From a virus: a DNA stretch of 38,228 bases. The first letter of the stretch is position 1. Every line of letters starts with the position of its first letter. The position numbers were made by a program, and so were the translations under genes. Below, in pieces: positions 1,968 through 29,523 of the stretch. The stretch spans positions 1 to 38,228 of IMG/VR virus record IMGVR_UViG_3300032053_000210; one strand, written 5' to 3'. The notes below the pieces were generated by a model. It was not told the origin of the DNA, did not search any database, and was given only the letters and a program-made list of their open reading frames with translations.

Positions 1968-3772
1968 TCTACGTTCGTTTCTTGGTTTCTTTTTACAAGC
2001 CGAAATACTTGGTTGAAGCTAGATTTAAATTCTGAACTGTGATCCACTATGTAGATTGCGTCTTTTTTGTCGGTAAGTAACGACATAAGGTGCATAAGCG
2101 ATTCTTTCCCGGAAACATCAAGACCATCTGCTGCTTCATCAAGAAAAAGAACATTGGGGGCAATTGAAGACCTACCAGAAACCACATCCGCTAAAGCCAA
2201 ATCTACCGCTAAAGATAAACGTTTATATTCGCCGCCTGAAAGGGAGCCGATATCTCTATTTAAGCCGGAATATTCACATTGTTCGGAAAATTTTCCTTTT
2301 ATTTCATCAGAAGTAAAATTAAATTTCATAATTCCGCCAGTTAGTACGTCCAGGAAATATTCGATTCTCGTATTAAGCTCTCGAATCAAAGCATCGAACA
2401 CGTAAGCTTTAACCCCAGTTGGACTAAAGATCTTCTTTGCTTCTGATAGATATGTTTTTTGCTCCGCCAGATCCATATGCTGGAGTTGTAACTTTTCGAG
2501 ATTGTTTTTCGATGTAGATATTGAATCTTTCAGGTTGCTGATTTGTCCCTGCAACACCATCCCTTTTTCATCGGCGGAACTAAGGGTGTTTGAGATGTTC
2601 CTAAGTTCGGACCTTTTAAGACTCACTTCCATTTGAAGTTTTTCCGGGCCTTTCGATTTCTCTTGACCAATCTTTTCCATGATTAACATCAATTCGCTAT
2701 TCAGAGAATCGTAATTAGGCACTTCATATGTACCTAATAAAACTGTTAAAGATTTTTGTCTTGAAACAAGTGGTACTAATTTAGCGTCGCATTCTAGGAT
2801 ATGGGTTTGGAGATTGAAATCCGGTAATTCCTGTCCACAAGTTTGGCATACACTTTGACCGTTATCTTTGAGTGAAGTGAGTTTTTGAATATCAGATTCT
2901 ACATTTTCAATCTCTCTTCTCACCTTTCTGATAGAATCTTCGATATTTCTGCCTTTTTGAATCTTCTGATCAATAACCATCTTTTCAGATTGTAGTTGTT
3001 GAATAGCTAAATTCGACTCTTTCGACAATTCTTGTATCTTAGTTTCCAATAGGGTAATGTCCTTTTGTAACGCATTTGCTTGGAATGTAAGGTCTTTCTT
3101 TTGTGACTCCTTTTGCGTCTGGAAGATGGAAAGAGCCTCAGTAGCGGATTCTAGTTGTTTGTTTAGAAGTTCTAGGTTTTGTTTTGTAGATTCGGTTGAG
3201 CCGGAGATCCTAGAAGTATCCAATTCGTTAGCGGTTAAATTGGTATGGGCTAGTTTATATGCCGCGTCATAAGAATCTAGGTTTAGAATAGTGGAAAGGA
3301 ATTTCTTCTTATCGCTATCGTTAAGCGAGATGAATCGTTTATTTGAACCCTGAAATATATATACAGACTGCACAAATTGTTCAAAACTTAAACCAACAAG
3401 CTCAGGAATACGTTTCTCAAGATCTTTAATAGTACCGTCAATCTTTTCACTATTTATGGTTAATATAAGTTTGCTAGAAGTATCTGTTCGGATGCGTTTT
3501 ACGGTAATCAATGTTCCATTGTTAGCTTCAAATTCTAGTTCAACAGACATTGAAGCCATACCATCGCGTTTAAGGCTCTCTAATTTAATATCCTTAGGTG
3601 TCCTCCCATACAACGCATAAGTAATAGAAGACATTAAGGCTGATTTGCCAACACCGTTGGAACTTTGCAAATCTAAATCTATACCATCAATTAAAACAAG
3701 ACCGGAAGGGAACGGAAAGGTAACGTCACCTAAGCTTTGAAAGTTTTGCGCTTTGAGGTTTTTAAATTTCAT
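1964..3772 (-). CDS. gp46/SbcC/Rad50-like recombination nuclease ATPase subunit
   Basis: A 602-aa SMC-family ATPase. Walker A is SSNGVGKSA (37-45). A long coiled coil is broken by a zinc hook CQTC at 309-312. The ABC signature LSGGE is at 511-515 and Walker B VLFLDEAADGLD at 541-552. Together with a gp47/SbcD nuclease such proteins form the Mre11-Rad50-type complex, which resects DNA ends for recombination-dependent replication and, in T4, host DNA breakdown. The matching nuclease is encoded about 25 kb away on the opposite strand (28519-29523), whereas the two are usually adjacent. It overlaps the upstream zinc-ribbon gene by 1 nt and the downstream HNH gene by 4 nt. Length and motif order fit phage gp46. 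Confidence 0.93.
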   Translation of the reverse strand: MKFKNLKAQNFQSLGDVTFPFPSGLVLIDGIDLDLQSSNGVGKSALMSSITYALYGRTPKDIKLESLKRDGMASMSVELEFEANNGTLITVKRIRTDTSSKLILTINSEKIDGTIKDLEKRIPELVGLSFEQFVQSVYIFQGSNKRFISLNDSDKKKFLSTILNLDSYDAAYKLAHTNLTANELDTSRISGSTESTKQNLELLNKQLESATEALSIFQTQKESQKKDLTFQANALQKDITLLETKIQELSKESNLAIQQLQSEKMVIDQKIQKGRNIEDSIRKVRREIENVESDIQKLTSLKDNGQSVCQTCGQELPDFNLQTHILECDAKLVPLVSRQKSLTVLLGTYEVPNYDSLNSELMLIMEKIGQEKSKGPEKLQMEVSLKRSELRNISNTLSSADEKGMVLQGQISNLKDSISTSKNNLEKLQLQHMDLAEQKTYLSEAKKIFSPTGVKAYVFDALIRELNTRIEYFLDVLTGGIMKFNFTSDEIKGKFSEQCEYSGLNRDIGSLSGGEYKRLSLAVDLALADVVSGRSSIAPNVLFLDEAADGLDVSGKESLMHLMSLLTDKKDAIYIVDHSSEFKSSFNQVFRLVKRNQETNVE

Positions 3773-5049: not shown

Positions 5050-7755
5050 TTAGGTTCCTGACATTTGTGCTGCAAAAGCTTGGGCTGCCAGTTCCGCTTG
5101 TCTTTCTTCCACAATATCCCTAGGAATTGTAACAGCCCCTCCTAGAGTCATAAGAAGCTGAGACACAGAAACCGCATTATTAAGGGCGCTAATAGTTACC
5201 TTCACCGGATCAATTATCCCTGCTTTAAATGGCTCAACTAACTGGTGTCGAAGTGAGTCATATAAAAGTGTCGGCATTAAGTTGCTATTTGGAGTTACTG
5301 ACCCCTGTACCACTGTGCCGGGATTTATTATGTCCTGTTGCGTAACTCCAGAATTGGATAGTATTCGATTAAAAGGGACCGTGAAAGAAGACGCAAGAAT
5401 GCTCTTTGCTGGCGTTTGTTTTTCACGGAGAACTAAGGAAAGAGCCAGCAATGCCGATCCTCCTCCAGGAACCACCCCCATCTCAATTGCGGATCGAACA
5501 GAGTTAATGGTATCTTCGATCCTATGTTTTTTTTCTCTAATCTCTAATTCGGATGTACCGCCGACATAAATAGTGGCAATTCCACCAGATAATTGACTTA
5601 CCCTCTCCTTAATGATCTCAGCGTCAAAATCGCTTTCTGCAATTTCCATTTGCTTTTTCAAAACCTCCATCCGTTCTTTTACGGCGTCAGAATCGTTCAT
5701 GCCTAAAATTACAGACTGATACCTACCTATACGACTCTGTTCACAAACGCCTAAATCTTCCACTTTGGCGCTTTTCAAGTTCTTTGATATGGGATCAAAA
5801 ACTGTTCCACCTGTGAAGGCTGCTAAATCATGTAAAAGATGATGTTTTGAGTTTGGTTGTGCAGTGGCAACGGTTTCCAGAAGACATATTGCTGCCCTAT
5901 TTGCTTTCACATTAAACGAAATAACTTGAATAACCTGTGGTGAAAACTTATGAGCCACAATAACCATCGGCTTGATATTATCGCCCATTTGAACAAATAG
6001 GTTTTGCAATGGAATTCCTAGATCTTGAGCAACATTTAAATCACCATCGTAGAGTAAAATATAAGGCAAATCAAACACACACTGCTGGTCTTCCGGTCGG
6101 TTAATGAAGAGTTCCTGAACTGCTCCAAGGCTATTCAGTCCCTTTTGAATCGGGAAGCCTTCCCTCATTTCCACTACCGTTTTACGTCCAGAACCATCCT
6201 CTGTAATAATTGTTCCGTCTTGGCCTACAAGATCAATAGCCTCAACAACGGATTTAGCCACGTCTTCATCAGAATTGGATGAAATCATAGCTACGTGAAG
6301 GAGTTCTTCGGGGGTTCCAATCGGTTTGGCACCTGCCTTAAGAAGCTCCACCATTTCGTTTGAGGTGGCGTCTAATTCCCGACAAAGTTCTTGAGGAGAT
6401 TTAGTAGGATTGTTTTTAAGGAATTTCATTCCTTCCTCAACAATAGCTTGGGCAAGGACAATAGCAGTAGTGGTATTGTGGGTGGTAATATAGTCATTCG
6501 TTATGTAGAGGTTATCTGGATTGCTTACTTTGATGCACTGCATGGGAGTTTTTGTGCCTGTGGCTGTAATTTTATCAATTCTATCCCCACACTTATCCTC
6601 TTTGAGCTGGGTAACTCTATATATCGGTGTCATAGAATAAGACATACCTTCTTTTCTAATTATTTTGGATAGGGTAACTGTTTGGCCAAGACTACGACAC
6701 AAATCCACCATGTCCTTAGCTAATTCTTCGCTAACACTACTGAATTCAAAGAGACCCCTAGTATTGATGTAGCCGTCCGTATCCAATAAGCCGTGAAGTA
6801 ATTGTTTTCTGTTTGCTATAGATGTATACAAATAAGATTTGGGGATAAACTTATTATCACTTCTTCTTCCGAGAAGACCTAGGGATGTAATAATATCTTT
6901 AATATAATTACCATGTCTATCTCTACCAGATATTTTTACACGATAAGAATGTTTCTCCTCTACGTAGGTGCTATTGGTATGAAAACCTTCGGGCAATATT
7001 AATTTATCAATAATGTGCTCCTTTTTCATCCCTAAAGATAGTTCAACTGACCCGGTTCCGCTTAAACTACCGTCTCCCAACAGCACCCCCACTAAGTAGG
7101 GGTCTAGAGGCATTTCAGCGGAATTAGTGTAAAATTCAACTAGGCTTCGAGGCGTATAATATTTTCTTCTTACTCCACCTTCTGAGTTGTAACTAACATA
7201 ATCTTTTAAAAGGTCTGAGACAGTCTTAATTTCTATATTTCCATATGGAGTGGTATTAACGTTGGCGACCATCCAGAGGTGATCACCACAACACTCCACT
7301 ATCCTCCCATTTGCAAACTCAATCCTATAAATTTCTTTCTCGCCCTTTGGAAACACACCTAACACTTTTTGAATTGTGCCATTAGTGCCACAAATATCCA
7401 TACCCACTCGCACGTCACCCATAGTAATAAAACCTTTAGGAGTTAAAATTTTACTATATAGTGGTTGGGGACCATCGCCAGCTTCCCTATTGGTTCTCTG
7501 ACAAGCTTCTTTAGCGGCTTCTGAAATAACATGTTCCGTGGAATTTGATAAAGAAACAGATTCAGCAACAGTTACTCCATCTTTCGTTATGAGAGGGGAA
7601 AAACCGGGTCTTTCAATAAGAACAGGATTTCCACCGGGACCTAATGTCACACCCACTAAATCACTAAGCATTTTCATAGTTCTTAAAGTTATGGCATCAA
7701 GCATTTCACCTTTAAGTATAATTGTTTTTGCTTTGGTTTTTAGTTCTGTTCCCAT
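5050..7755 (-). CDS. groEL: Phage GroEL-like chaperonin interrupted by an intein
   Basis: The 901-aa precursor is a GroEL chaperonin split by a 332-residue intein (residues 96-427), leaving about 569 residues after splicing. GroEL hallmarks are VGVTLGPGGNPVLI near residue 35, TKDGVTVAESVSL, the ATP-site sequence GDG|TTTAIVLAQAIVEEG restored by splicing, and VPGGGSALLALS late in the protein. The tail lacks the Gly-Met repeat of bacterial GroEL and ends AAQAFAAQMSGT. Known: some large phages carry a divergent GroEL that folds phage proteins, in some cases without GroES. I see no GroES gene here. The Asp in GDG is the ATP-hydrolysis residue, so the unspliced form should be inactive. It sits 9 nt after the methyltransferase-like gene in the leftward operon. 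Confidence 0.95.
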   Translation of the reverse strand: MGTELKTKAKTIILKGEMLDAITLRTMKMLSDLVGVTLGPGGNPVLIERPGFSPLITKDGVTVAESVSLSNSTEHVISEAAKEACQRTNREAGDGPQPLYSKILTPKGFITMGDVRVGMDICGTNGTIQKVLGVFPKGEKEIYRIEFANGRIVECCGDHLWMVANVNTTPYGNIEIKTVSDLLKDYVSYNSEGGVRRKYYTPRSLVEFYTNSAEMPLDPYLVGVLLGDGSLSGTGSVELSLGMKKEHIIDKLILPEGFHTNSTYVEEKHSYRVKISGRDRHGNYIKDIITSLGLLGRRSDNKFIPKSYLYTSIANRKQLLHGLLDTDGYINTRGLFEFSSVSEELAKDMVDLCRSLGQTVTLSKIIRKEGMSYSMTPIYRVTQLKEDKCGDRIDKITATGTKTPMQCIKVSNPDNLYITNDYITTHNTTTAIVLAQAIVEEGMKFLKNNPTKSPQELCRELDATSNEMVELLKAGAKPIGTPEELLHVAMISSNSDEDVAKSVVEAIDLVGQDGTIITEDGSGRKTVVEMREGFPIQKGLNSLGAVQELFINRPEDQQCVFDLPYILLYDGDLNVAQDLGIPLQNLFVQMGDNIKPMVIVAHKFSPQVIQVISFNVKANRAAICLLETVATAQPNSKHHLLHDLAAFTGGTVFDPISKNLKSAKVEDLGVCEQSRIGRYQSVILGMNDSDAVKERMEVLKKQMEIAESDFDAEIIKERVSQLSGGIATIYVGGTSELEIREKKHRIEDTINSVRSAIEMGVVPGGGSALLALSLVLREKQTPAKSILASSFTVPFNRILSNSGVTQQDIINPGTVVQGSVTPNSNLMPTLLYDSLRHQLVEPFKAGIIDPVKVTISALNNAVSVSQLLMTLGGAVTIPRDIVEERQAELAAQAFAAQMSGT
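6475..7470 (-). mobile_element. Class 3-type intein with LAGLIDADG endonuclease in groEL
   Basis: It encodes precursor residues 96-427. It starts with Pro (PQPLYSKILTPKG) rather than Cys, Ser or Ala, and ends TTHN before the +1 Thr. The class 3 signature is complete: Trp161 two residues after the block B His (CGDHLW), Cys407 at the block F nucleophile position (QCIKV, where class 1 has Asp or similar), and Thr425 in the final THN. Two LAGLIDADG dodecapeptides (LVGVLLGDGSL and LHGLLDTDGYI) mark an embedded homing endonuclease. In class 3 inteins the block F Cys attacks the N-terminal splice junction directly. Boundaries follow from restoring the GroEL GDGTTT motif. Confidence 0.92.
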
Positions 7756-13353: not shown

Positions 13354-14211
13354 ATGAAAATAGGTTTTATAAAAATACGCCGTGAGATTATGGAATGGGA
13401 ATGGTATCGCACCCGCGATATGTTTCATTCATTTTGCCATTTAATTATGAAAGCAAACTGGGTTGATAAGAAAGATCGAGGCCAATTAATTAAACGAGGG
13501 TCTTTTATATCAAATGTAAGGGAATTATCCTCGCAAACTGGCATCAGTGGCCAAAGATGGAAAACCATCATAGCTCGATTACAACAAACTGGCGAAATCA
13601 ACATTCAAACAACCAATAAATATACACTCTATGTTATTAATAATTATGATTATTTTCAGACATGGGTTTATGAGAATGGTGAAAATCAACAAACAGCCAA
13701 TAAACAAACAATAAACAAAACCGTGCAAGCCGATGAAATCATTGAGGAAACAGGCCCTGAAGAAGATAAAGAAGATAAAGAATATAAGAATTATTATATT
13801 GTTGTTGAAAAAGCAGATAAAACAGATCTTTCTGATGGTTTACCAAAAGAAGAAAAAATAGAAAATGATGTTTCAGAAATTAATGGTAAGTTTAAAAGAA
13901 CGGCACAACAAAGGCTTATTGATGAGGCGTCAAAATTTAGAAGAAATCATATGGATTATAAATTTGTAGAAGATTTTCTTGCACCATGGTTTAATGAAAA
14001 ACCAGATCGGATTACAAAAGTTAATTTAAATAGATTTATTGTGTCTTATAAAAAATTATACACCCCCCCAACCGGGAAGGTTTTTACTGATGCTATTATT
14101 CCAAATATTGTTTCGGCCTTTAATGAAGCAAGATTGAAATACCAGCTAGAACAAGATCAAATGAAAGAGTGGAAAGAATTAATAAAGGGAGAATTGAATG
14201 AAAAAGCTTAG
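13354..14211 (+). CDS. Phage replication initiator / replisome organizer-like protein
   Basis: A 285-aa protein. The N-terminal about 105 residues follow the phage replisome-organizer winged helix: KIRREIMEWEWYRTRDMFH, a helix with MKANW, the conserved LIKRGSFISNVRELSSQTGI block, and a closing beta wing ending VINNYDYFQ. A low-complexity linker rich in Gln, Asn, Asp and Glu follows. The C-terminal helical region (about 195-285) could bind partner proteins. Such proteins recognise the origin and load helicase. Here the primase-helicase gene follows with a 14-nt overlap, which supports that role. No obvious iteron cluster was seen inside the gene. Confidence 0.75.
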   Translation: MKIGFIKIRREIMEWEWYRTRDMFHSFCHLIMKANWVDKKDRGQLIKRGSFISNVRELSSQTGISGQRWKTIIARLQQTGEINIQTTNKYTLYVINNYDYFQTWVYENGENQQTANKQTINKTVQADEIIEETGPEEDKEDKEYKNYYIVVEKADKTDLSDGLPKEEKIENDVSEINGKFKRTAQQRLIDEASKFRRNHMDYKFVEDFLAPWFNEKPDRITKVNLNRFIVSYKKLYTPPTGKVFTDAIIPNIVSAFNEARLKYQLEQDQMKEWKELIKGELNEKA

Positions 14212-15862
14212 TGTTTCTTTTTTGGGTAATGACTTTGGAAAAATCATAGGGACACTTGATTTATCTCTGTCTGATCTTTGTAGGTGCGTTTGTAAAAAGA
14301 ATTGGTCCGCTGGTACGTTTAAAGATGGAATTAGGAGAATAAGTAATTGGATTTCTAGTGATATTTTAGCTCTTGATATTGATTCAGGTTGTACAATTGA
14401 AGAAGCAAAAGAGAAGTTTAAAGGTTATAAAGCTATTTTTGCTACCACCAAATCCCATCAAAAAGAGAAAAATGGGATAATTTGTGATCGATTCAGAGTC
14501 TTACTACCCCTTGAATTAACTATCACTTCGGAATCAGATTATAGGGCTACTTGGTTTGCTGCTTTTAAACTTTGGCCCTTTATCGATGAAGCCTGTAAAG
14601 ATCCTTCTAGATTTTTTTATCCATCGGGTAAGGTCGTTCATATTCAAGATGGCATCCCTTTTCCCATAACTAAAGAGGAGCCTAAAACTAATGCGGTGAG
14701 TCAAGTAGTTATCCCAAATGGGATAAAAGGGTTACTTTCCGCTAAAACAAAGGATTTTATTACACTTGGAGCCCCTGATGGAGAATGGAATTGTAGACTC
14801 CATCTCGCTGCGGTTGATATGAAAGAACAACAGTATAGTTTTGATGAAGCAATTTCTTTACTTAAAAAAGCTTCACCCGTTCTAACTCTAGATTCAAAAG
14901 ACATGTCCACAATTGAAGGAGTTTTTAATAGGGATGTCAAATATGCTCCAAGATTGCCAAAAACCGAAATAGCAACCATTCAGGGTGTTTTCAATCTACC
15001 AGATGTTGTAGAAGAAATCGCATCCTATGATAGAGATAGTTTGGTTATGGAGGATGCTAAAACTCGAAGGGTGTCGTTTATGAACCCCTGCGTAGATAAA
15101 ATTGCTTATTTGGAACCTGGTGTGACGATATGTGGTGCGTTGACGGGAACGGGTAAAACTACCGTAGCTTTGAATGTTTCATATAATTTTCTTAAAAATG
15201 AGCCTGTTAAAAAAGTTGTTTATATCTCAAACGAAATGTCATCTTCGGTTGTAAAAGACAGAGTTTCATGTTTGTTTTTAGGGAAAAGTTTTGATTATAG
15301 ATATTTGAGCCCTGAGCAAAAGGAAATTGTAAGGGCAAAATCAAGAGAGCTTTCTGATAGGTTCACTGTCGTGGATCAGAACGCTTATGATATGACGGTA
15401 GTTGAAGAGGTCTATAGTGTTTTGGAGGCTATTGAGCGACGCAGAGGTGATGTGGGATTACTTATAATAGATTATCTTCAAACAATTTCTGTATCGAAAG
15501 ATCCTAAAGTGAGGGGTCGTTATGAAGCGTCAAAGAGATTTGGTGATTTATTACTAGCATATGGTAAAAGGAACGCACCTCCAGTATTAGCTTTCGCACA
15601 ATTAAAAACAACAAAAGACTCTGTTGATTTTACAGATAGAGTGGAAGGAGATAAGACAATCTGTAACCACTCAGTTTTAACGGCTGAGATTATTCGTACA
15701 AAAGATACTAATCAGAGTAAGATTCTATTTCATAAGGATAGAAATGGAGAAGCGACAGGAAAAGTTGCTTTTTTCTTGTATAAAAATGGATTACTTGTAC
15801 CACAGGGAGATGAATCTCCCACTGTATATTTATCATCTCCTTCCCATAGTGATGAAGAGTAG
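14198..15862 (+). CDS. AEP-type primase fused to DnaB-like helicase
   Basis: A 554-aa bifunctional replication protein. The N-terminal domain has archaeo-eukaryotic primase (PrimPol) landmarks: ILALDID (56-62) with the metal-binding DxD, TTKSHQ (83-88) as the sxH motif, DRFRVLLPLE, and DPSRFFYPS (135-143). The C-terminal domain is a RecA-fold hexameric helicase with Walker A GALTGTGKT (313-321), an ISNEMSS segment, Walker B LLIIDYLQT at about 416-424, and FAQLK. This makes primers and unwinds the fork for the DnaE polymerase encoded at 20302. It replaces the TOPRIM primase-helicase of T7 or separate gp41/gp61 of T4. An AGGGAG ribosome site lies in the preceding gene. Confidence 0.85.
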   Translation: MKKLSVSFLGNDFGKIIGTLDLSLSDLCRCVCKKNWSAGTFKDGIRRISNWISSDILALDIDSGCTIEEAKEKFKGYKAIFATTKSHQKEKNGIICDRFRVLLPLELTITSESDYRATWFAAFKLWPFIDEACKDPSRFFYPSGKVVHIQDGIPFPITKEEPKTNAVSQVVIPNGIKGLLSAKTKDFITLGAPDGEWNCRLHLAAVDMKEQQYSFDEAISLLKKASPVLTLDSKDMSTIEGVFNRDVKYAPRLPKTEIATIQGVFNLPDVVEEIASYDRDSLVMEDAKTRRVSFMNPCVDKIAYLEPGVTICGALTGTGKTTVALNVSYNFLKNEPVKKVVYISNEMSSSVVKDRVSCLFLGKSFDYRYLSPEQKEIVRAKSRELSDRFTVVDQNAYDMTVVEEVYSVLEAIERRRGDVGLLIIDYLQTISVSKDPKVRGRYEASKRFGDLLLAYGKRNAPPVLAFAQLKTTKDSVDFTDRVEGDKTICNHSVLTAEIIRTKDTNQSKILFHKDRNGEATGKVAFFLYKNGLLVPQGDESPTVYLSSPSHSDEE

Positions 15863-15903: not shown

Positions 15904-15932
15904 TTGACATAAACCTTGTAATTTGATAAAAT
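15904..15932 (+). promoter_or_regulatory. Strong sigma70-type promoter
   Basis: Perfect TTGACA (15904-15909), a 17-bp spacer and TAAAAT (15927-15932), 20 nt before the MoxR gene ATG. The 89-bp gap after the primase-helicase stop holds this and a GAGG ribosome site. Confidence 0.8.
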
Positions 15933-15951: not shown

Positions 15952-17148
15952 ATGGCACATGACATTATTTCATTAAAAGCTTCTCAGATTAAAGAATTAA
16001 TCAAAAATAGAGTTCGTAATAGAGGCATAAAAACTCGTCCAATTTATCTCGTAGGGCATAAGGGCATTGGTAAATCTCAAATAACCAAACAACTAGCCGA
16101 TGAACTATCTAAGGAATTTGGTGTTTCTGTTGAATGCCGAATCATTAATCTTCAATTTGTTGAACCGCCTGATTTTCTTGGGCTTCCATACGTGGATCAA
16201 GAATCAGATAGTTCCAATGTTCGCGTCACTCGTCACGCTAGACCAGAACTTCTACCTTTCAATGACGATATAGGAATTCTCTTTTTTGATGAAGCCAATC
16301 GTTGTGCTCGAGATAATCGACAGGGTTTAATAACGATAATCGAAGATCGAGCTGTCAACAATCATATTCTTGGAAAGAATTGGATAATTGTACTTGCTGG
16401 GAATCCTTCAGATGGTTCCGATGGTATTTCATATGAAACGCAGGAGTTTGATGCTGCCCTTGAAGATCGAATTTGCAGAGTGAATTTTCAAGGTGATGTT
16501 GCTGAATTTACAGATTTTATGGTTAAGAAACATGGGGAATCTCATCCAGTGGTAAGATGGATCATGAACCAACCAGAAATAGTTGATTTTAAAGGCAAAA
16601 CTCGCACTTCTCCACGCGGACTAGATTATTTGTGTGCTGGAATTGCAGTGGATGGCGGTTTTGAATCTCCCACTGTATGGCAAGCGATTGGTGCCGAAAT
16701 TGGAATGGAAGCGGCTCAGGTTTTCAGAAAGTTTCTTATGGACCCTGAAAAGATCTCTGCTGAAGACATTGTAGAAAATTTTGATAAGACCGACTCAATG
16801 GTTAAACTAAATGAGCTTGAAAAACATGGTAGGACAGATGTTTTAAATGCTTTAGTAAATAGTGTAGTGAATCTTTTGGTGAGTAGAGATATTAAACCAG
16901 AATATTTGGAGAATGTGGGAAAATATCTTCAAGGATCTACCGCTGAGACAATTTGTAATTTCTTTTTAGTTCTTGGTGAAAAAATCCCCACTAATGACAG
17001 TAGATTTTTACAGATTACCAATGTATTAGCAAAAAATCCTAGAGTAAAAGATACTTTAGATAAGTTTGATTCAGATGTTAGTGGTGAAACAATTAAAACA
17101 ACTCCATCTCAAAAAAAGCGTGGACGCCCATCTAAAAAACCTATTTGA
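15952..17148 (+). CDS. MoxR-family AAA+ ATPase
   Basis: A 398-aa AAA+ protein. Walker A is GHKGIGKS (35-42), Walker B ILFFDEANR (109-117), sensor 1 LAGNPSD (148-154), and FDAALEDR resembles the arginine-finger segment. The C-terminus (about 380-398) is basic and carries KKRGRPSKKP, an AT-hook-like DNA-contact motif. MoxR ATPases act with VWA-domain proteins to remodel or insert cofactors into target proteins. A VWA/metallopeptidase protein is encoded 43 bp downstream, matching this pairing. It has its own strong promoter. The AT-hook-like tail is unusual and hints that the complex may act on DNA or nucleoprotein (inference). Confidence 0.88.
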   Translation: MAHDIISLKASQIKELIKNRVRNRGIKTRPIYLVGHKGIGKSQITKQLADELSKEFGVSVECRIINLQFVEPPDFLGLPYVDQESDSSNVRVTRHARPELLPFNDDIGILFFDEANRCARDNRQGLITIIEDRAVNNHILGKNWIIVLAGNPSDGSDGISYETQEFDAALEDRICRVNFQGDVAEFTDFMVKKHGESHPVVRWIMNQPEIVDFKGKTRTSPRGLDYLCAGIAVDGGFESPTVWQAIGAEIGMEAAQVFRKFLMDPEKISAEDIVENFDKTDSMVKLNELEKHGRTDVLNALVNSVVNLLVSRDIKPEYLENVGKYLQGSTAETICNFFLVLGEKIPTNDSRFLQITNVLAKNPRVKDTLDKFDSDVSGETIKTTPSQKKRGRPSKKPI

Positions 17149-17173
17149 CAAAGTTTCTGATTTAGAGTAGAAT
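17145..17173 (+). promoter_or_regulatory. Strong sigma70-type promoter
   Basis: Perfect TTGACA (17145-17150) overlaps the MoxR stop codon, with a 17-bp spacer and TAGAAT (17168-17173), 18 nt before the VWA gene ATG. The two partner genes therefore each have a promoter. Confidence 0.75.
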
Positions 17174-17191
17174 AAAGATATAGGCCGTAAA

Positions 17192-18421
17192 ATGGATAAA
17201 AAACCATCAATGACTTTAGAAGAAATTCGAGCAGTTAATGATAAATTATCTAAAGCTATTATTAAATTCTTTGATCAATATCCTCTTTATTACATCATTC
17301 TTTCTTCTTTAGCTCGTATAGGTACTTCCGCAATTTCAACCATTGGTGTTGGCTTTGATTCTCAAAATATTATTTCTTTATTTTATAATCCTGATTTTAT
17401 TGGGAAATTAGATACTAATGAGCTTCAAATTGTTTTAAATCATGAATGTCAACATTTAGGTCTTCGCCATTTAGATCGCGGTAAGAGTCAAAAATATCAC
17501 GAAAATAAAAAATTGGCTAATGTGGCAATGGATATTGTGATTAATGACGCTATTGCTGATTTTATATCGTCTGCACCAAATTTATATAAAAAAGCAATGA
17601 CTGCCGATAAATTTGAATCTCTTCAGGGGGTTGTGATTAGAGACAAGACATGGGAACAACTTTTTGAAATTATCAAGGAAGAAGTTGATAAACAAAAGAG
17701 TAAAATGGAACAACTTTTTAAAGACGCAATGGATTCGCATGATAAGTGGAATGGAGAAGATGGGCAACAGTCTGATCTTAGTCCTGAACAACAAATGGCC
17801 CTTGATGGACTGATGAAGGATGCTGTTAAGAATCTTGGTAATCGTGATCCCGGAAATGTTCCAGGCGCTATGCGTAGAATGGTTGAAGAAATTCGTAAGG
17901 TATTTTTTAATTGGAGAAGGGAACTTAGTATATTTGCCCAAATAGTTGCCCAGGAAGATCGTATCCCCACTTGGAAAAAAATTAATAGGCGTCTTGGGAC
18001 TATTAGTCCTGGTAACAAGAAGGAATTTAAACCTAATATTTTGCTAGTTGTAGATAATTCTGGGTCTATTGATGGACCTATTTATGATTTATTTATGTCA
18101 CATATGTTAAAAATTTCAGAAACCTGTAATCGGATTGATGGAATTGGTGTTGATACGAAAGTTAATTGTGAATTTAAACTTGAAAAGGGTAAAACTCCTA
18201 ATTTAAAAGATTTATTATCTGGAGGTGGAACTAATTTTCAACCAGCTTTTGATTATGCAAAGAAAAAAGGAGATTATAGCGGGATTGTTTATTTTACAGA
18301 TGGTTATAATTTTGATTCTTTTATTACACATAGTATCCCTGTCATTTTTGCCATTTGTGCGGGCGGAAAAGAGGTCATGGGATATCGGAATATAAGAATT
18401 GAAGACGATGAATCTATTTAG
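17192..18421 (+). CDS. Metallopeptidase-like plus VWA-domain protein (DUF2201-type)
   Basis: A 409-aa protein. The N-terminal half holds a zincin-like motif NHECQHLGLRH (83-93; His84, Glu85, His88) in a fold typical of VWA-associated putative metallopeptidases. The C-terminal half is a VWA-like domain with the MIDAS motif DNSGS (288-292), a downstream GGGTNF Thr (about 347) and FTDG Asp (370). These proteins pair with MoxR ATPases, as here. The target is unknown; the HExxH arrangement suggests it could cut or bind a protein substrate delivered by the ATPase (inference). It lies directly downstream of its partner and upstream of a second zincin gene. Confidence 0.85.
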   Translation: MDKKPSMTLEEIRAVNDKLSKAIIKFFDQYPLYYIILSSLARIGTSAISTIGVGFDSQNIISLFYNPDFIGKLDTNELQIVLNHECQHLGLRHLDRGKSQKYHENKKLANVAMDIVINDAIADFISSAPNLYKKAMTADKFESLQGVVIRDKTWEQLFEIIKEEVDKQKSKMEQLFKDAMDSHDKWNGEDGQQSDLSPEQQMALDGLMKDAVKNLGNRDPGNVPGAMRRMVEEIRKVFFNWRRELSIFAQIVAQEDRIPTWKKINRRLGTISPGNKKEFKPNILLVVDNSGSIDGPIYDLFMSHMLKISETCNRIDGIGVDTKVNCEFKLEKGKTPNLKDLLSGGGTNFQPAFDYAKKKGDYSGIVYFTDGYNFDSFITHSIPVIFAICAGGKEVMGYRNIRIEDDESI

Positions 18422-18449
18422 TGTGCCTATTGTCATTGAGTGATTTTTA

Positions 18450-19094
18450 ATGAGTATGAAAAAGAATAAAACAAAGTTTGTGTCTCATTACCAGCTGGAA
18501 TTGGAAATTACTACTAAATTTCTTCATTTGGCTAAAAGTGTAGATCACTCTCTATCCCGCCTCACTTACTGGATGCTTTCTCGCAAAAAGCATTTCAAAT
18601 ATGATAATACGCTTTTATTAACTCAGTTTAAGCGTAATCGAAAAATAGAACATTTTTTAGTTAATATCAAAAAGGTACCCAAACTATGCTTTTTTGCTGA
18701 CAAAATACCTGTACTTTCATTTGGCTCTTATGACGATAAAAGAGATACGATTTTTATTTCTGATAAGGTAAGGGGGACGGGTGCATTTTATTCTATTTTT
18801 TTTCATGAATTAATTCATGCAGCCGGTAGAAAAAATAGGGTACCGAGACCCTCTATGGTTTATGAGACAAAATCTGAGAAGATTACAGAGGAATTTATAG
18901 CTGAATTTGGTTCCTTATTTTTGAGTACTTATTTTGGTGTTGCCTCTCGCCGCCTTATGGAGAGTTTTGCTGTTAGAATTAACGCCATTACCAACGCAGT
19001 TAAGGAGGATAAGCGTTTTAAGCGTAAACGTGTTTATTATCAACCATATATTCAAGAAGCAATAAGGTCTATAAAATATCTTTTAGTTAATTGA
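18450..19094 (+). CDS. ArdC-like zincin metallopeptidase (possible antirestriction)
   Basis: A 214-aa basic protein. FFHELIHAAGRKNRV (117-131) holds the HExxH zinc motif (His119, Glu120, His123), and TEEFIAEFGSLFL (146-158) supplies the downstream acidic ligand. This matches the ArdC and phage polyvalent zincin pattern HELxHxxGxxxR...EExxAExG. The classic N-terminal ssDNA-binding half of ArdC is not evident; the first 90 residues are basic and helical. ArdC-type proteins protect incoming DNA from restriction. The start could be the ATG at 18450 or 18456. It stands third in the MoxR/VWA cluster, before a very acidic protein. Confidence 0.65.
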   Translation: MSMKKNKTKFVSHYQLELEITTKFLHLAKSVDHSLSRLTYWMLSRKKHFKYDNTLLLTQFKRNRKIEHFLVNIKKVPKLCFFADKIPVLSFGSYDDKRDTIFISDKVRGTGAFYSIFFHELIHAAGRKNRVPRPSMVYETKSEKITEEFIAEFGSLFLSTYFGVASRRLMESFAVRINAITNAVKEDKRFKRKRVYYQPYIQEAIRSIKYLLVN

Positions 19095-19145
19095 AAATGT
19101 AGTATTATAGATGTGTATATTAAATATAAATGGAGGTTTACATTC

Positions 19146-19454
19146 ATGATTAAGTTGGATTCATATTGGAATGATAAAGTAATGGCGGGAAAAGTCAAAC
19201 AATTAAGAGATGAGTTACCTCAATTTTTTGAAAACGTTGAAGGCTATGATTTATTTCTGTCCTGGTTGAAATTTTCAGATTATAGTTGGTTGGAGCCCAC
19301 TCCCAAAGCTGTTGAAACCTTTATTGCTGAAATTGATATTGATAATTTAAAATTATTGAATGATTGCGATGATGGAGATGAAGACGGTGAGTTGGAAGAT
19401 TATGACAATTTGTTTACTACTGATTGTGATTGGTCTTTTGATGAAGAAAAGTGA
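19146..19454 (+). CDS. Highly acidic 102-aa protein
   Basis: I chose the ATG at 19146 because a GGAGG ribosome site lies just upstream, rather than an in-frame ATG at 19113. About 28 of 102 residues are Asp or Glu against roughly 9 Lys or Arg. The last 35 residues are almost all acidic (CDDGDEDGELEDYDN). The first 65 residues are Trp- and Phe-rich and helical. No family is recognised. Small, very acidic phage proteins are sometimes DNA mimics that block restriction or nucleoid enzymes. The neighbouring ArdC-like zincin fits that idea (inference). The HNH gene begins inside its 3' end. Confidence 0.6.
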   Translation: MIKLDSYWNDKVMAGKVKQLRDELPQFFENVEGYDLFLSWLKFSDYSWLEPTPKAVETFIAEIDIDNLKLLNDCDDGDEDGELEDYDNLFTTDCDWSFDEEK

Positions 19455-19752
19455 ATTTTATAATGATCCTATGAGGATGAGAGGAATTGCTACCTCATTT
19501 AAAAGGAATGGATTTAAAAAAGATTCGAAAACGGCGGCTATTCTGGGGTGTGATTTCGAAACCGCCTTTAAATCAATAGGCTGGTTCAGAGGTTGCGAAA
19601 TTCACCACATCGTCTATCTAAAAACCGCCAATACCAAAGAAGACGTGGAGCGTCTTAACCACTACACCAACCTAATTGCCTTAACCCACAAAGAACATAG
19701 GGCCGTACACAAGGGGATTTTTGAGTTAATTAATATGGGGAGAAAAAAATGA
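19441..19752 (+). CDS. HNH homing endonuclease, short form
   Basis: From the ATG at 19441, which overlaps the acidic gene by 14 nt, this gives 103 aa. The frame is open further upstream in the other gene's sequence, but that part looks like a shadow. The domain core (GFKKDSKTAAILGCDFETA, then IHHIVYLKTANTKEDVERLN, then ALTHKEHRAVH) matches the nuclease domain of the HNH gene at 1338-1967, with long identical DNA stretches. The zinc finger and tandem repeats are absent, so DNA targeting may differ or the gene may be a truncated derivative. It overlaps the cyclase-like gene by 4 nt and contributes its ribosome site. Confidence 0.8.
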   Translation: MKKSEFYNDPMRMRGIATSFKRNGFKKDSKTAAILGCDFETAFKSIGWFRGCEIHHIVYLKTANTKEDVERLNHYTNLIALTHKEHRAVHKGIFELINMGRKK

Positions 19753-20301: not shown

Positions 20302-23300
20302 ATGAGCTTTAAGCCCTACATTGACCTTCATGTTCATTCCCACTACTCCCTACTCGATGGGGTGAGTAGTCCTGAAGAGATTATTGAACGCGCCAAAGAA
20401 CTCGGAGCCACTTCTGTAGCCATTACGGACCACGGGAATGTTTCCGGGATTTATGAGTTTTATTGGGCCGCTAAAAAAGTTGGTATTAAGCCTCTGATAG
20501 GTTGCGAGTTTTACATGAAGGGTGATTTATCTAACAATGATTCTAAATATTTTCATGGCATTTTAATAGCTATGAATAAGAAGGGATTTGAAAATCTCCT
20601 AAAATTATCTTCAATGGCTCGTAATGAAGAACATATGATAGGAACAACCGAAAGGAACAAACGCCCCATTATTTCCTTTAAGGAGATTTTCAAACACTCT
20701 GAGGGACTTCTTTTTTCCACTGCCTGTGTCGTTGGTATCTCTGGGGCTTGCCAGAAGAAGATGGCTAAGTTAAAGACAGGTAAGGGGAATAAGTACGAAA
20801 GTCATAATCTTTCTTTTCAAGAGGTTGACCTTCTATTTGGAGCTTTTAAGGCAGTTTTCAAAGATAGGATGTTTGTTGAGATTCATCCGGCTAGAGTGAA
20901 TACCGATTATAACAATAATGTTTTTGTTGTTAGACCCGTAGAGAATACGGAGTTTGGTGAACTGCAATTTTCCACTAATTGTCTACAAGAAGAACACAAT
21001 CGTAGATCAATTCTAATGGCCAAGAGGCACGGTTTACCACTTGTGATAGCTACTGATGCTCACATGATAAGACCGGATCTTAAGACTGTACAAGATTTGT
21101 TAATTAAAAATGCTGCTGATAACTTTAATGGATGGCATTTTGATGAAACTTTTTCCATGGTAGGGTCTGAGGAAATGTGGAATATGTTTCAAAAGAATCA
21201 TCCATATATCACTAAAGAATTATTTGAACAATGTATTGACAATACATATATGGCGGCATCTCTTTGTGAAGATATTCAATTGGATTTTAAAACTATTGTT
21301 CCAAAATTTCCATTATGGCTTCTTGAGAAAAAGATAGCCGATTCCGCAGTCCAGGCTTATTTCCATGAAAGATATAAAGATATTTATAAGCCCGGAATGA
21401 CATCTAGAGAAATGATGTTTGCGATTATTAAACGCACTGGAAGAATGCCAAAGGATAATTTACAATATTTAAGGCGATTGCAAGAAGAAGTGAAAGTTAT
21501 ATGCGATAATGGGATCATTGATTTTACAGACTACTTTCTTATTTTGTCTGATACAGTTAATGCGGCTCCATATTTGGGGGTCGGTGTAGGTCCTGGCCGT
21601 GGAAGTTCAGCTGGTTGTTTACTCGCTTATTTACTTGGAGTAACCTCCATTGATCCAATTAAATATGATTTAAGTTTTGTACGTTTTTTAAATGCAGGAC
21701 GTATCGAGAGCGGACAGATGCCAGATATTGATTTGGATTTCAGCAATCGAAGTTTAATTGTGAAATATCTTTTCGAGCTATACGGTAAGGATTATGTTTC
21801 GTTGGTGGGAACATTCCAGACCATCAAAACAAAAAATGCGTTGAAGGATATTGTTAGGACACTCAATGGCGGACATCTGAAGAGTGATGATGAGATATTT
21901 AAAGTTTGTGCTGAAATCGATACTGCCCCCCAATATTATCCGACCGAAAAGGCATTTTTAGAGGGTTTCACGGATGATGACGGTGATTACCATAGTGGGA
22001 TGTTGGAAAGCAATAAAACTCTTCGTACTTATCTTGAAACCCATCCTGAAGTGAATAAGATGCTTTTTGAGATTTTAGAGAAGCCTCGTAATCAAAGTAA
22101 GCACGCCGGTGGTGTGGTTATTACTTCCCCCATATCTATTGACTCTGTAATTCCTACCCAGTTCTTACATGGGGATAAGAGTACACAAGTAGATTATAGG
22201 ACATTGGAAAAGATCGGTGGCCTTAAGATAGATATATTGGGCGTCAACACACTGAATTTTATTTGGGACGCTGTGAAATTAATTGAAAAGAGACACGGAA
22301 TTAAATTAGATCCATGGAACCTACCGGAAGATATTCAGGTATTTAAGATGCTGTCTAGGGGGGATACTTCTACAGTTTTTCAATTGGACACACAAGTGGC
22401 CATCCCTATATTAAAGGCGATCAGTGTTAATTCCATAAGCGATCTTGCATTAGTAACCGCCGTTGGTCGTCCTGGGTGTCTGGATTCTAAACTTGAAGAT
22501 GGGGTGTCTGTAGCGGATCACTTTATAAAGCGAAAACGTGGTGAAGAGCCTTTAGTATTACTAGATCCTATATTAGAACCGATTTTAGGTAAAACTTATT
22601 CCATTCCAATCTTCCAAGAACAGGTCCAAAAGATATTTGAAGTTGTTGGTGGCCTTTCTCCCGTGGAATCAGACGACGCACGTCGCGCAATGGGGAAAAA
22701 GAACCTACAAGTACTTTTAAGTATTAAGAAGCAACTTTTTGATGGCGCTCAATTTCGTCTTGGATGGAATGAAGAAAAATGTGAAGCCTTATGGCAATCG
22801 TTTATAGGTTCTGCAAACTACAATTTTAACGAAGCCCACGCATATGGATATTCGGTTATTGCTTATGCTTGTGCATATCTTAAGAAGAAATACCCCTTGG
22901 AGTGGTGGTGTGCTGTTCTGTCCCATATTGGATCAGATAAAGTTAAGACCTATTTAGGCGAAATTGAAGATTTTATGAAATTGCCTAACGTGAATTATCC
23001 TCAAAATCAATGGGTAATTACTGAAGATTCTAAACTCATTTCGCCATTAACTTTGATTTTAGGGATTAGTGAGAAAACAGTTGGTGAAATAGCATTAAAT
23101 TCGCCTTTCACCTCATTTGAGGACTTTTTTAATAGGGTTCATAAGCGTACTGTTAATAAAACTGCAATCAATAATATGATAATAACAGGATGTTTCACGA
23201 GAATTCCGATAAGAGATGGTGGACCCTTATTAACTGACTCCCAAAACGACACAAATGCCCTTTTGGCTCACTTTGGGGAGCTACGCAGGGAAAAGGAGCC

Positions 23301-23802
23301 CCCCAGGACATGGACCGATTTAGAGCTGATTAAGGAGCGTTCAAGGCTATTGTCAGTGGTGTCTTATGAGTATGTCGAAATATTCAAAGAGTCATTAAAA
23401 AATAGTAAAAATTTGGATTTTATTGAAGTTCGAAATGAAGTTGGTGATATATTTTACAAGATAGACAACTGTATTGTTATCACAAATTCTGATAATTTCG
23501 ACTTCTGGTACCAAAATCTCGGTTTAGATACTAAGATTTGTTTTGTAGGAATTTTTAATGATGAGTCTAAGATGTTTCATTATATCGAAAAGAAAACAGG
23601 TAATAAAGTGGGGGCCTACAAGTTACTGGTTGAAAATGATAATAGAATTGTTGAAACTGTCATTTGGCCTAATACACTTTCAAAGACCTCAAAGAGAGAT
23701 TTTGAAAATGGAGCTATTTTAGCGGTGTTTGGGACTCTAAGAAAAAGTGGTTTTAAGAAGAATATTGAATTTAGTTATCTTTTTCATAAAAGAATTTTAT
23801 AA
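20302..23802 (+). CDS. dnaE: DNA polymerase III alpha subunit (C-family)
   Basis: A 1166-aa DnaE-type replicative polymerase. The N-terminal PHP domain starts YIDLHVHSHYSLLDG (6-20) and continues with ITDHGN and GCEFY. The palm holds GPGRGSSAG and the catalytic PDIDLDF (474-480; Asp475, 477 and 479). The finger/thumb continues with KHAGGVVI, the helix-hairpin-helix-like segment NEAHAYGYSVIAY and the later region up to the OB-like C-terminal part. Length matches bacterial DnaE. With the AEP primase-helicase it gives the phage its own fork. Most T4-like phages use a B-family enzyme, so this is a distinct replication type. It lies 16 bp after the cyclase-like gene. Confidence 0.95.
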   Translation: MSFKPYIDLHVHSHYSLLDGVSSPEEIIERAKELGATSVAITDHGNVSGIYEFYWAAKKVGIKPLIGCEFYMKGDLSNNDSKYFHGILIAMNKKGFENLLKLSSMARNEEHMIGTTERNKRPIISFKEIFKHSEGLLFSTACVVGISGACQKKMAKLKTGKGNKYESHNLSFQEVDLLFGAFKAVFKDRMFVEIHPARVNTDYNNNVFVVRPVENTEFGELQFSTNCLQEEHNRRSILMAKRHGLPLVIATDAHMIRPDLKTVQDLLIKNAADNFNGWHFDETFSMVGSEEMWNMFQKNHPYITKELFEQCIDNTYMAASLCEDIQLDFKTIVPKFPLWLLEKKIADSAVQAYFHERYKDIYKPGMTSREMMFAIIKRTGRMPKDNLQYLRRLQEEVKVICDNGIIDFTDYFLILSDTVNAAPYLGVGVGPGRGSSAGCLLAYLLGVTSIDPIKYDLSFVRFLNAGRIESGQMPDIDLDFSNRSLIVKYLFELYGKDYVSLVGTFQTIKTKNALKDIVRTLNGGHLKSDDEIFKVCAEIDTAPQYYPTEKAFLEGFTDDDGDYHSGMLESNKTLRTYLETHPEVNKMLFEILEKPRNQSKHAGGVVITSPISIDSVIPTQFLHGDKSTQVDYRTLEKIGGLKIDILGVNTLNFIWDAVKLIEKRHGIKLDPWNLPEDIQVFKMLSRGDTSTVFQLDTQVAIPILKAISVNSISDLALVTAVGRPGCLDSKLEDGVSVADHFIKRKRGEEPLVLLDPILEPILGKTYSIPIFQEQVQKIFEVVGGLSPVESDDARRAMGKKNLQVLLSIKKQLFDGAQFRLGWNEEKCEALWQSFIGSANYNFNEAHAYGYSVIAYACAYLKKKYPLEWWCAVLSHIGSDKVKTYLGEIEDFMKLPNVNYPQNQWVITEDSKLISPLTLILGISEKTVGEIALNSPFTSFEDFFNRVHKRTVNKTAINNMIITGCFTRIPIRDGGPLLTDSQNDTNALLAHFGELRREKEPPRTWTDLELIKERSRLLSVVSYEYVEIFKESLKNSKNLDFIEVRNEVGDIFYKIDNCIVITNSDNFDFWYQNLGLDTKICFVGIFNDESKMFHYIEKKTGNKVGAYKLLVENDNRIVETVIWPNTLSKTSKRDFENGAILAVFGTLRKSGFKKNIEFSYLFHKRIL

Positions 23803-26359: not shown

Positions 26360-28519
26360 ATGACAACAAATTGGTATTCCAGAATCCAAAAAATGGGGGA
26401 TGGCTTAATCGCAGATCAAATGGGGAGTACCTCTGAAGCGAAGAGGGTCCTTATCCCCTCTCCGAGCTTCAATTGGGCGGTAGGAGGGGGCCTAGTCTAC
26501 GGAAAAGTCTGTACCGTTTATGGGCCTGAGCAGTGTCAACCTGCTGGTTCTAAAGTGCTGATGGCGAACGGGGAGTTTAAAAATATTGAAGACATAAAGG
26601 TTGGGGATAATGTTCTTTCTCCTCAACGTAACGATGAATATAATTTTTCTACAGTTTTACACACAACCTCCTGGTTTTGTGAGGATATGTACACCATAAA
26701 ATCACTAAGAAAGAATAATCCAATATTATATTCTTGTTCCGGTAATCATATCGTTCCTCATACTTTTCTTGATCAACGAAAAATTCCCAAGACAAGAAAA
26801 AGCGGTCAATTCCGCGTTACCAGAGAATTGACCGCTAAAGAGATTTTTTCACTTAAGGCGGGACTGATACAAAACAGTCATGTCGTAACATGTCCCTTGA
26901 TCGCCAAGTTTAACAGGGCGGAAAATCCTCAGATAGACGGCTATGCGCTGGGGGTATATTTGGGAGATGGTCATCTTGCACCGAGTGGTCAGGTTAGTCT
27001 AACGAATGTCAATATGGGAATTTTGGATAGACTCTTATCATTGGGGGCAATTTTCCCCAGTGGTATTAGGGAAAGGAAAGGAAATCCCCATATAAAGGTG
27101 GTGACTTTAAGTAAGTTTCATCCGTGGGTTAAATATTTTGAAAAGGTTGGTTTATTGGGTAAATTAAGTCATGATAAGTTTATTCCAAACGAGGCTAAAT
27201 TTTCTGATTTAGAATATCGGCAAAACTTACTAACCGGTTTATTAGATACGGACGGGTATTATGATGTGAAAAAAAATACTTATGAATACGCCACCGTTTC
27301 AACACAACTGGCTAAGGATGTGCAGTTTTTGGTTCACTCATTAGGCGGATATGCGGGGATTTCTGAACGTTTTACTAGCTATAATAAGGGGGGAACGAAA
27401 TTTAAAAGTTATCGCCTATATATACAGCTTAACATGCAATTAAAGATGTTAAACAAATATAAGCGAATGAAATTCATTCCTTATAGGCGATCAAATTGCC
27501 GCCATCAGGGGTTTTTGATAGAGCGTTCTAACCCGCAACAGGTGTATGGTTTCGTGCTAGACTCCCCTTCAAACTGGTATGTTACAGATAATTATATTAT
27601 TACGCACAATTCAGGCAAGTCTTTGATAGCTCAATTAGCTATCGCCTCTATGCATAAAGAAGACCCTGAAGCTTGGGCATTATGGTATGATGCTGAGTTT
27701 AGTTTCGATTCCCAATATGCTTCTAAACTAGGAATAGACCTAAAACGTTTAATGGTTGTACAATCTAATAAGCCGTCTGATATTTTTGATCATTTTGTAG
27801 ATCAAATTCTTCCTATGTTACAGGATGAAGAACCTTTTCCTTTGAAGATTATGGTTATTGATTCTATTAAGTCAATTCGCGGCCCCAAAGAAGCTGACAA
27901 AGATTCGGTTGAGGCGCAGATCATGGGCGACCTGTCTCAGCTTTTGCAGAAGGCATTTCGCAAGATTATTCCGCCCATTAAGCAGAATAAGATCCTCCTG
28001 ATCTGTGTGCAACAGGTTTCAGAGGAGTTTGATCAGACACGAGTTATGCAAGGTCACAAATGGCATGTCCCGTCTGGAATGGCCCTCAAACACGCTTCTG
28101 ATTATATGATTCTTGTTGAGAAGGTTGAGAATAAAGCAAGTAAAATATTTGATGAAACCCATAAGGGTATCAGTAATCTTCCTATTCAATTGGGACACAT
28201 TATTCGCTGTAAGGTCGAAAAGAATCGTGTCAATTGTCCTCATCTCGTTGCTCAATTTAGACTTCAATATGGTGTTGGTGTAGTGGATACGGAACTTGAA
28301 GTTTGTGAACTTGCAGTTAATATTGGTGTAGTAAATAGACCTACACAAGCTGCATATGAGTTTGAAGGTATTAAAGTGGTAGGAATTGCTAACTTCGTGA
28401 ATAAAGTTAAAAAAGATCCCAAGCTTTATAACGCACTGGTTGAGGCTATTAATAAGACAGATGTTTTTAGGAAGAGGGAAGTACCTACAACTCCAGTTAT
28501 TGAGGATGATGAGGAATAA
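26360..28519 (+). CDS. uvsX: UvsX/RecA-like recombinase interrupted by an intein in its P-loop
   Basis: The 719-aa precursor is a RecA-fold recombinase with a 359-residue intein (59-417), leaving 360 residues. Extein parts: NWAVGGGLVYGKVCTVYGPEQ, joined after splicing to SGKSLIAQLAIASM, which rebuilds Walker A GPEQSGKS. Walker B is KIMVIDSIKSI. QNKILLICVQQVSEEF is the loop L1/sensor region and HASDYMILVEK follows. The acidic tail is VIEDDEE. UvsX coats ssDNA and performs strand exchange in recombination-dependent replication and repair. Because the intein splits Walker A, ATPase activity requires splicing. The ATG follows AAAGGAG. The stop overlaps the gp47 gene start by 1 nt. Confidence 0.92.
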   Translation: MTTNWYSRIQKMGDGLIADQMGSTSEAKRVLIPSPSFNWAVGGGLVYGKVCTVYGPEQCQPAGSKVLMANGEFKNIEDIKVGDNVLSPQRNDEYNFSTVLHTTSWFCEDMYTIKSLRKNNPILYSCSGNHIVPHTFLDQRKIPKTRKSGQFRVTRELTAKEIFSLKAGLIQNSHVVTCPLIAKFNRAENPQIDGYALGVYLGDGHLAPSGQVSLTNVNMGILDRLLSLGAIFPSGIRERKGNPHIKVVTLSKFHPWVKYFEKVGLLGKLSHDKFIPNEAKFSDLEYRQNLLTGLLDTDGYYDVKKNTYEYATVSTQLAKDVQFLVHSLGGYAGISERFTSYNKGGTKFKSYRLYIQLNMQLKMLNKYKRMKFIPYRRSNCRHQGFLIERSNPQQVYGFVLDSPSNWYVTDNYIITHNSGKSLIAQLAIASMHKEDPEAWALWYDAEFSFDSQYASKLGIDLKRLMVVQSNKPSDIFDHFVDQILPMLQDEEPFPLKIMVIDSIKSIRGPKEADKDSVEAQIMGDLSQLLQKAFRKIIPPIKQNKILLICVQQVSEEFDQTRVMQGHKWHVPSGMALKHASDYMILVEKVENKASKIFDETHKGISNLPIQLGHIIRCKVEKNRVNCPHLVAQFRLQYGVGVVDTELEVCELAVNIGVVNRPTQAAYEFEGIKVVGIANFVNKVKKDPKLYNALVEAINKTDVFRKREVPTTPVIEDDEE
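26534..27610 (+). mobile_element. Intein with LAGLIDADG endonuclease in the UvsX P-loop
   Basis: It encodes 359 residues from Cys59 (CQPAGSKVLMANGEF) to THN before a +1 Ser. Block B is CSGNH, the LAGLIDADG blocks are LGVYLGDGHL and LTGLLDTDGYY, and block F/G is YVTDNYIITHN. With Cys1, a penultimate His and final Asn it fits class 1 splicing. It begins with the same CQP/PQP-SKxL pattern as the groEL intein, and its endonuclease core looks related to it. Confidence 0.93.
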
Positions 28520-29523
28520 TGGGAAAAATACTTTATAGTGGAGATGTTCACGCTAAGTTGAGTTCGTTAGATACATTTCAAAAGTATCTAGCTACTATGC
28601 TGAGGCTTCAAAAGGAAAGACTTCCTGATATGGTGGTTATTGGTGGAGATCTATTTGATGGCCATGCAATTATTCGTTCCGAGATTATGAAGGAATGGGT
28701 TGATTATTTAGAAAAAAGTATAATTCCACATGTTCTTTTAGTGGGTAACCACGACTTAATAGCGCCCGGAGCCGCTATTCATGCTATGGCGGCTCTTAAG
28801 AAACACGCTAAGGTTGTGGATAAGCCTTATAGAATGGGGGATTTATTATTTTTGCCTTATGTTCATACCCAGGTTGAATTTGAAGAAATGATTGATATAT
28901 CTAATGCTGGTCATCCATATGACAGATGTCTGGTTCTCTTTTGTCATCAATCATTTGATGGTTCAAAGTATGATAATGGGTTTTATGTACCCGATGGTAT
29001 TAATCTAGATCTTGTAAGGCAATTTAAACTTGTTGTTAGTGGTCATATACATTGTGATCAGCAATTTGCTAATGTGTGGTATCCTGGTAGTCCTTATAGT
29101 ATGAGTTTTGCTGATGTCGGGCTTGATAAGGCTGTCTGGATGATTGATACTGATACTGATTCAAGGGAGCGAATTCCAACCAATCTTCCGAAGTTTCTTT
29201 CTGTTACACTTTCCGTTCATGAAGTACTTTCATTCCTTGAAACAGCTAATAATGAAGATCATTATAGATTGATTGTTCAAGGCAATCGGTCAGAAATTAC
29301 TGCTCTAGCAGACCAAAACGCCTATAAGGACCTTCGTAAGACCTTGAAAATAAGCATTCAGCCTAATTATCTTGATATAGCGGTAAAAGAAGAGAAAATC
29401 TCTGATAAGATTACACCAGAGGATATGGTAAAGACGTATATTGAGAAAGTTATGATCACTGAATTAGACAAAAATAGACTTTTAGATCTTTCAAATAAAC
29501 TTCTGAAGGGTAACATGTTATAA
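28519..29523 (+). CDS. gp47/SbcD/Mre11-like recombination nuclease subunit
   Basis: A 334-aa calcineurin-like phosphoesterase. The five metal-binding motifs are in order: SGDVHAK (Asp9, His11), GGDLFD, GNHD, FCHQS and SGHIHCDQ. WYPGSPYSMSF follows, as in SbcD-type nucleases. The C-terminal 110 residues are the helical/capping part that binds the ATPase subunit. With the gp46-like ATPase (1964-3772) it forms the end-resection complex. The ATG overlaps the UvsX stop (TAATG), so it is translationally coupled to the recombinase, rather than to its own partner, which lies in the leftward block. Confidence 0.92.
   Translation: MGKILYSGDVHAKLSSLDTFQKYLATMLRLQKERLPDMVVIGGDLFDGHAIIRSEIMKEWVDYLEKSIIPHVLLVGNHDLIAPGAAIHAMAALKKHAKVVDKPYRMGDLLFLPYVHTQVEFEEMIDISNAGHPYDRCLVLFCHQSFDGSKYDNGFYVPDGINLDLVRQFKLVVSGHIHCDQQFANVWYPGSPYSMSFADVGLDKAVWMIDTDTDSRERIPTNLPKFLSVTLSVHEVLSFLETANNEDHYRLIVQGNRSEITALADQNAYKDLRKTLKISIQPNYLDIAVKEEKISDKITPEDMVKTYIEKVMITELDKNRLLDLSNKLLKGNML

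Follow-up and report, generated by a model that had tools for sequence, protein, structure and literature searches.

Do four consecutive phage genes encode the parts of one machine, and what would such a machine do? The question is raised by positions 15952-19454 of the window, that is, the whole 38-kb stretch of DNA analysed here, a virus record from a tailed phage. An earlier note had described these genes as an AAA+ remodeller with an AT-hook-like tail, a VWA protein with a HECQH motif, a second HExxH zincin resembling ArdC and a very acidic small protein. It saw two strong promoters serving the first two genes and suggested that the set could act as a counter-defence or protein-remodelling machine delivered early in infection. 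A check against the ORF list found all four open reading frames where they had been placed (Table 1).

Table 1. Position of the genes and promoter-like sites of the window.
Feature	Position	Strand	Matches and remarks
SbcC-like protein	1964-3772	-	
Phage GroEL homologue	5050-7755	-	split by intein-like insert, about residues 100-430
DnaB-like helicase	14198-15862		
Promoter-like site TTGACA-17-TAAAAT	15904-15932	+	upstream of MoxR gene
Gene 1, MoxR-type AAA+ ATPase, 398 aa	15952-17148	+	Pfam, phrog_1297; AT-hook-like basic C-terminal tail
Promoter-like site TTGACA-17-TAGAAT	17145-17173	+	upstream of VWA gene; overlaps MoxR stop codon
Gene 2, metallopeptidase-VWA partner protein, 409 aa	17192-18421	+	DUF2201_N and DUF2201, phrog_1314
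Gene 3, stand-alone MPTase-PolyVal zincin, 214 aa, basic, pI 10	18450-19094	+	HELIH, EEFIAE; without ArdC-N
Gene 4, small acidic protein, 102 aa, pI 4.05	19146-19454	+	corrected start; without family match
Small HNH-like protein	about 19441-19752	+	phrog_119, phrog_4321, weak; overlaps end of acidic gene
Diadenylate-cyclase-like protein, DAC/DisA_N domain, 178 aa	19749-20285	+	PF02457; start overlaps HNH stop
DnaE	20302-23802		
RecA/UvsX-like recombinase	26360-28519	+	carries intein-like insert
SbcD-like protein	28519-29523	+	
Terminase	30744-32675		
Likely portal protein	33730-38226	+	judged from sequence by eye and from place alone

The run of genes is unbroken past position 19454 and continues into an HNH-like and then a diadenylate-cyclase-like (DAC-like) gene. 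According to Pfam and PHROGs, genes 1 and 2 sit between a DnaB-like helicase and DnaE, that is, in a replication module. A nucleotide-level search of the phage collection with the window gave no match, and direct IMG/VR searches with the VWA protein, the zincin, the DAC-like protein and DnaE returned no relatives. Elsewhere in the window, the genes for the SbcC-like and SbcD-like proteins are widely separated and oppositely oriented, and the portal-like protein, inspected by eye, apparently contains two intein-like inserts. Host assignment based on the GroEL homologue was uninformative, yielding only distant matches in Thermotogae, Bacillota and Actinomycetota (30-34%).

Gene 1 matches Pfam AAA_5 (E=2.5e-6) and phrog_1297 (E=1.6e-33), and its product ends in KKRGRPSKKPI with an AT-hook-like RGRP, which bears out the AAA+ remodeller with its AT-hook-like tail. 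None of the five homologues in the gene 1 alignment has this tail. Among 13 ATPases, the invariant positions include G40-K41 of Walker A, E114 of Walker B, N151 (sensor 1, assigned by position), R173 and R222. When the profile of the ATPase family was compared with solved structures, midasin ranked first (4e-29), and CbbQ and other AAA+ ATPases were matched as well.

The second gene encodes a metallopeptidase domain at the N terminus, followed at the C terminus by a VWA domain whose MIDAS is complete. Its Pfam matches (putative metallopeptidase DUF2201_N, E=1e-16; VWA-like DUF2201, E=5e-8) and the HECQH at residues 84-88 agree with what had been claimed for it; its PHROGs match is phrog_1314 (E=2.6e-54). 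In all 15 partner proteins compared, H84, E85, H88, N110, A112, D114 and N118 of the peptidase half and D288, S290, S292, G345-G346-T347 and D370 of the VWA half are invariant. The profile of the partner family matches integrin I domains with their MIDAS in its VWA half, and weakly M48-type/MJ1213, HtpX and BepA peptidases in its N-terminal half. A structure prediction from the single sequence was unusable (pLDDT 33), and we count this against our best explanation. PHROGs and many phage records name phrog_1314 an 'HNH endonuclease', which is contradicted by Pfam and by the conserved residues. Conserved residues and profiles instead support a putative remodeller plus a MIDAS adaptor with a peptidase site. 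By tblastn, the gene 2 protein was found in 276 phage records from many hosts, with about 20-25% identity among the matches listed. The couple is widely shared among phages, and its second gene is misnamed in many public records.

Conservation of the set was analysed in 14 phages picked from different groups for having the VWA gene. The phrog_1297 ATPase was present in all of them, and in 13 the two genes lay within 4.5 kb of each other, where random placement yields about 1.5 phages and at most 8 in 200,000 simulations, an estimate which is optimistic because the phages are phylogenetically non-independent (roughly half carry N4-like genes or a Schitoviridae annotation). The pair is also present in phage G, PBS1, MIJ3, 4MG and two cyanophages, while W07, chosen for its DnaE, has neither phrog_1314 nor phrog_1297. 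In SBP1, Ab09 and Horatius the pair adjoins a helicase or DNA polymerase. The helicase-polymerase placement recurs in N4-like phages. Two cases count against our best explanation: in phiKT1024 the pair genes are 45 kb apart, and in the cyanophage S-TIM54 their neighbours are Hsp20 and a virion gene. The MoxR and VWA genes of Synechococcus phage MinM2 flank a DUF3150 gene (2870-3742), which possibly encodes a further partner.

The co-conservation expected for four genes was thus found for the first two only. An MPTase-PolyVal domain like that of gene 3 did not reach the family cut-off in any of the 14 pair-carrying phages (PBS1 had one sub-threshold match), four PolyVal-carrying records lacked phrog_1314, and for the acidic protein the family searches came up empty. 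With no PolyVal match above the cut-off in the 14 phages and no VWA gene in the four records, a four-gene system is rejected.

What, then, are genes 3 and 4? The product of gene 3 matches MPTase-PolyVal (E=6e-9), with HELIH at residues 119-123 and EEFIAE at 147. Its best match among solved proteins is ArdC (E=9e-4), in the C-terminal half of the latter, where HELIH and EEFIAE align with the metal site; in PHROGs it matches phrog_7245, 'anti-restriction protein' (E=9e-11). It resembles ArdC of plasmid R388 in its C-terminal metallopeptidase with HExxH and a glutamate helix, but differs from it in having an unrelated basic N-terminal region in place of the ssDNA-binding domain ArdC-N (PF08401), which a profile search found neither in gene 3 nor elsewhere in the window. 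The zincin and its resemblance to ArdC therefore stand for the peptidase half, while the missing ArdC-N rules out that gene 3 is ArdC. For gene 4, the ATG at 19146, preceded by GGAGG, is most likely the start, rather than the GTG at 19113 taken by the ORF finder. With the start moved, the protein is very acidic, as had been noted (pI 4.05, 27.5% D+E), and Pfam, PHROGs, NCBIfam and PADLOC contain nothing that matches it.

On these two genes hinges the idea that all four constitute one counter-defence system, in which the zincin would provide ArdC-like antirestriction and the acidic protein would mimic DNA. ArdC as the best solved match, the phrog_7245 annotation and the strong acidity of gene 4 are in line with it. 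However, the peptidase activity of R388 ArdC is dispensable for antirestriction (PMC7213743), the window has no ArdC-N, and a PADLOC scan gave no meaningful match. Since gene 3 is not ArdC, genes 3 and 4 are not co-conserved with the pair and gene 4 is without match, the counter-defence role is unsupported, and we regard a four-gene system of this kind as highly improbable. ArdC-like peptidases of some other phages are thought to cut host proteins (PMC7824862), and such a role appears more likely for gene 3 than antirestriction; its function is probably separate from that of the pair.

The strong promoters proposed for genes 1 and 2 correspond to the only two sites of the window with 11/12 or better agreement with the consensus (15904 and 17145; about 0.8 expected per strand), and their last bases are 20 and 19 positions upstream of the respective start codons. 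While this placement is suggestive, the number of 11/12 sites is not clearly above chance. Since the window has no excess of promoter-like sites overall compared with shuffles (65 versus 64), activity of both sites is plausible only.

We consider it fairly probable that genes 1 and 2 form a single machine of two components, of the type of N4 gp24/gp25, which remodels and cleaves a client protein. The PHROGs matches, the co-occurrence and proximity of the two genes, the invariant residues, the profile matches, the placement in the replication module and the status of N4 gp24/gp25 as core genes with middle expression all point in this direction. The MoxR AAA+ protein would assemble into an ATP-driven ring, and the VWA partner would use its MIDAS to bind either the client or the ring itself, in the manner of midasin and RavA-ViaA. 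Remodelling or pulling of the client would then be driven by ATP hydrolysis, and its cleavage would fall to the metallopeptidase domain joined to the VWA domain. The client would most likely be a replication or transcription protein of phage or host, handled during the middle phase of infection, whereas the zincin, acidic and HNH-like genes would be same-direction neighbours outside the machine. Of the functions suggested previously, protein remodelling accordingly fits the MoxR-VWA pair but does not extend to genes 3 and 4, which are not co-conserved. Delivery early in infection finds no support: the genes are located in a replication module, and N4 gp24/gp25 are middle transcripts (PMC4193335).

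The pair could alternatively serve virion assembly or maturation: it would chaperone structural proteins, which its metallopeptidase domain would process. Such a role has been put forward for group 2.2 jumbo phages; the jumbo-phage MoxR protein and its partner, a vWA domain fused to an N-terminal metallopeptidase, were named chaperone and co-chaperone in 2021 and assigned a putative part in virion assembly and processing (PMC7824862). The related MoxR-VWA pair p618/p892 of Acidianus two-tailed virus (ATV) acts in tail development (PMC4124505), virion genes are found near gp24/gp25 in the Roseobacter N4-like phage RPP1 (PMC4193335), and the neighbours of the S-TIM54 pair fit as well. We nevertheless think a virion function less likely here, as the pair belongs to the replication module in the window and in several N4-like phages, and the N4 virion proteins that the available text of PMC4193335 names do not include gp24/gp25. 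Less probable still is that the pair serves to activate an enzyme that depends on a metal or cofactor, for instance one of phage nucleotide metabolism, as CbbQO does for rubisco or as CoxDE supports the insertion of a cofactor. Enzyme activation is a common role of bacterial MoxR-VWA couples (PMC7159879), and RHph_I1_6 and V13 have nucleotide-metabolism genes near the pair. But cofactor insertion leaves unexplained why the HExxH is intact and invariant in 15 of 15 partners, and no gene for such a client lies beside the pair in the window.

The gene directly upstream of DnaE is the rarest and most unusual of the stretch at the sensitivity of the scans used. Its product scores 39.7 bits against PF02457 (cut-off 27), aligns to CdaA/DacA structures by phmmer (E=9e-4) and reaches a probability of 94.8 by hhalign; a single-sequence structure prediction was unusable (pLDDT 37). 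Compared with 25 bacterial DACs, it shares with CdaA/DisA-type cyclases the DAC domain, DGA, G-x-RH and the CdaA-type VSEET. It differs from them in being phage-borne, in lacking the DisA C-terminal domain and in reading RHH instead of RHR, where the third residue is R in 24 and K in one of the 25 bacterial proteins. Mutants with RHR changed to AAA are inactive (PMC3328451, PMC4568413); a single R to H exchange is not among the mutants reported in the available text of these papers. No credible relative was detected by tblastn in 50,697 phage records, none was confirmed in IMG/VR by protein and alignment pattern scans, no DAC domain was present in 15 phage genomes searched, and PHROGs, probed with canonical DACs, contained no such family. 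This rarity holds only at the sensitivity of the scans, because they are pattern- or identity-limited. Staphylococcus aureus DacA matches 21 unannotated records of the phage collection, which are labelled as gut 'Bacteriophage sp.' or as phages of Listeria, Staphylococcus and Enterococcus; these records, one of which was inspected and carried no annotation, are probably host DNA. We tentatively entertain the possibility that the gene encodes a genuine phage diadenylate-cyclase homologue, which might make c-di-AMP or, given its altered RHR, hinder the host enzyme and so reset a host second messenger during replication. An active protein would constitute a c-di-AMP enzyme encoded by a phage, of which we found no report in the literature.

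The MoxR-VWA pair itself is not new, since it has already been described in jumbo phages and N4-like phages, where gp24/gp25 are core genes (PMC4193335, PMC7650795). The literature yielded no tested function and no biochemical test of any pair member. The HExxH and MIDAS residues invariant in 15 of 15 partners provide the exact positions for point mutants in N4, where the genes are gp24/gp25.

How does the pair relate to known MoxR-VWA systems? As to the third component of bacterial MoxR-vWA ternary conflict systems, general Pfam, PHROGs and PADLOC scans named no VMAP, iSTAND or FtsH-like protein among the neighbours. Midasin (Rea1/Mdn1), RavA-ViaA, CbbQO and ATV p618/p892 share with the window a MoxR/midasin-type AAA+ ring protein and a MIDAS VWA domain; however, descriptions of their VWA partners mention no HExxH domain such as the one found here (PMC7824862, for ATV), and midasin is a single chain. 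Closest are N4 gp24 (AAA+ ATPase) and gp25 (vWFA) and the jumbo-phage pair, which have the same families (PHROG 1297 and 1314), gene order and adjacency, the same metallopeptidase plus VWA architecture with its invariant residues, and a replication-module setting. Identity to the aligned phage homologues is only about 19-26%, and the window pair is set apart by its AT-hook-like ATPase tail, a promoter-like site for each gene and other downstream neighbours.
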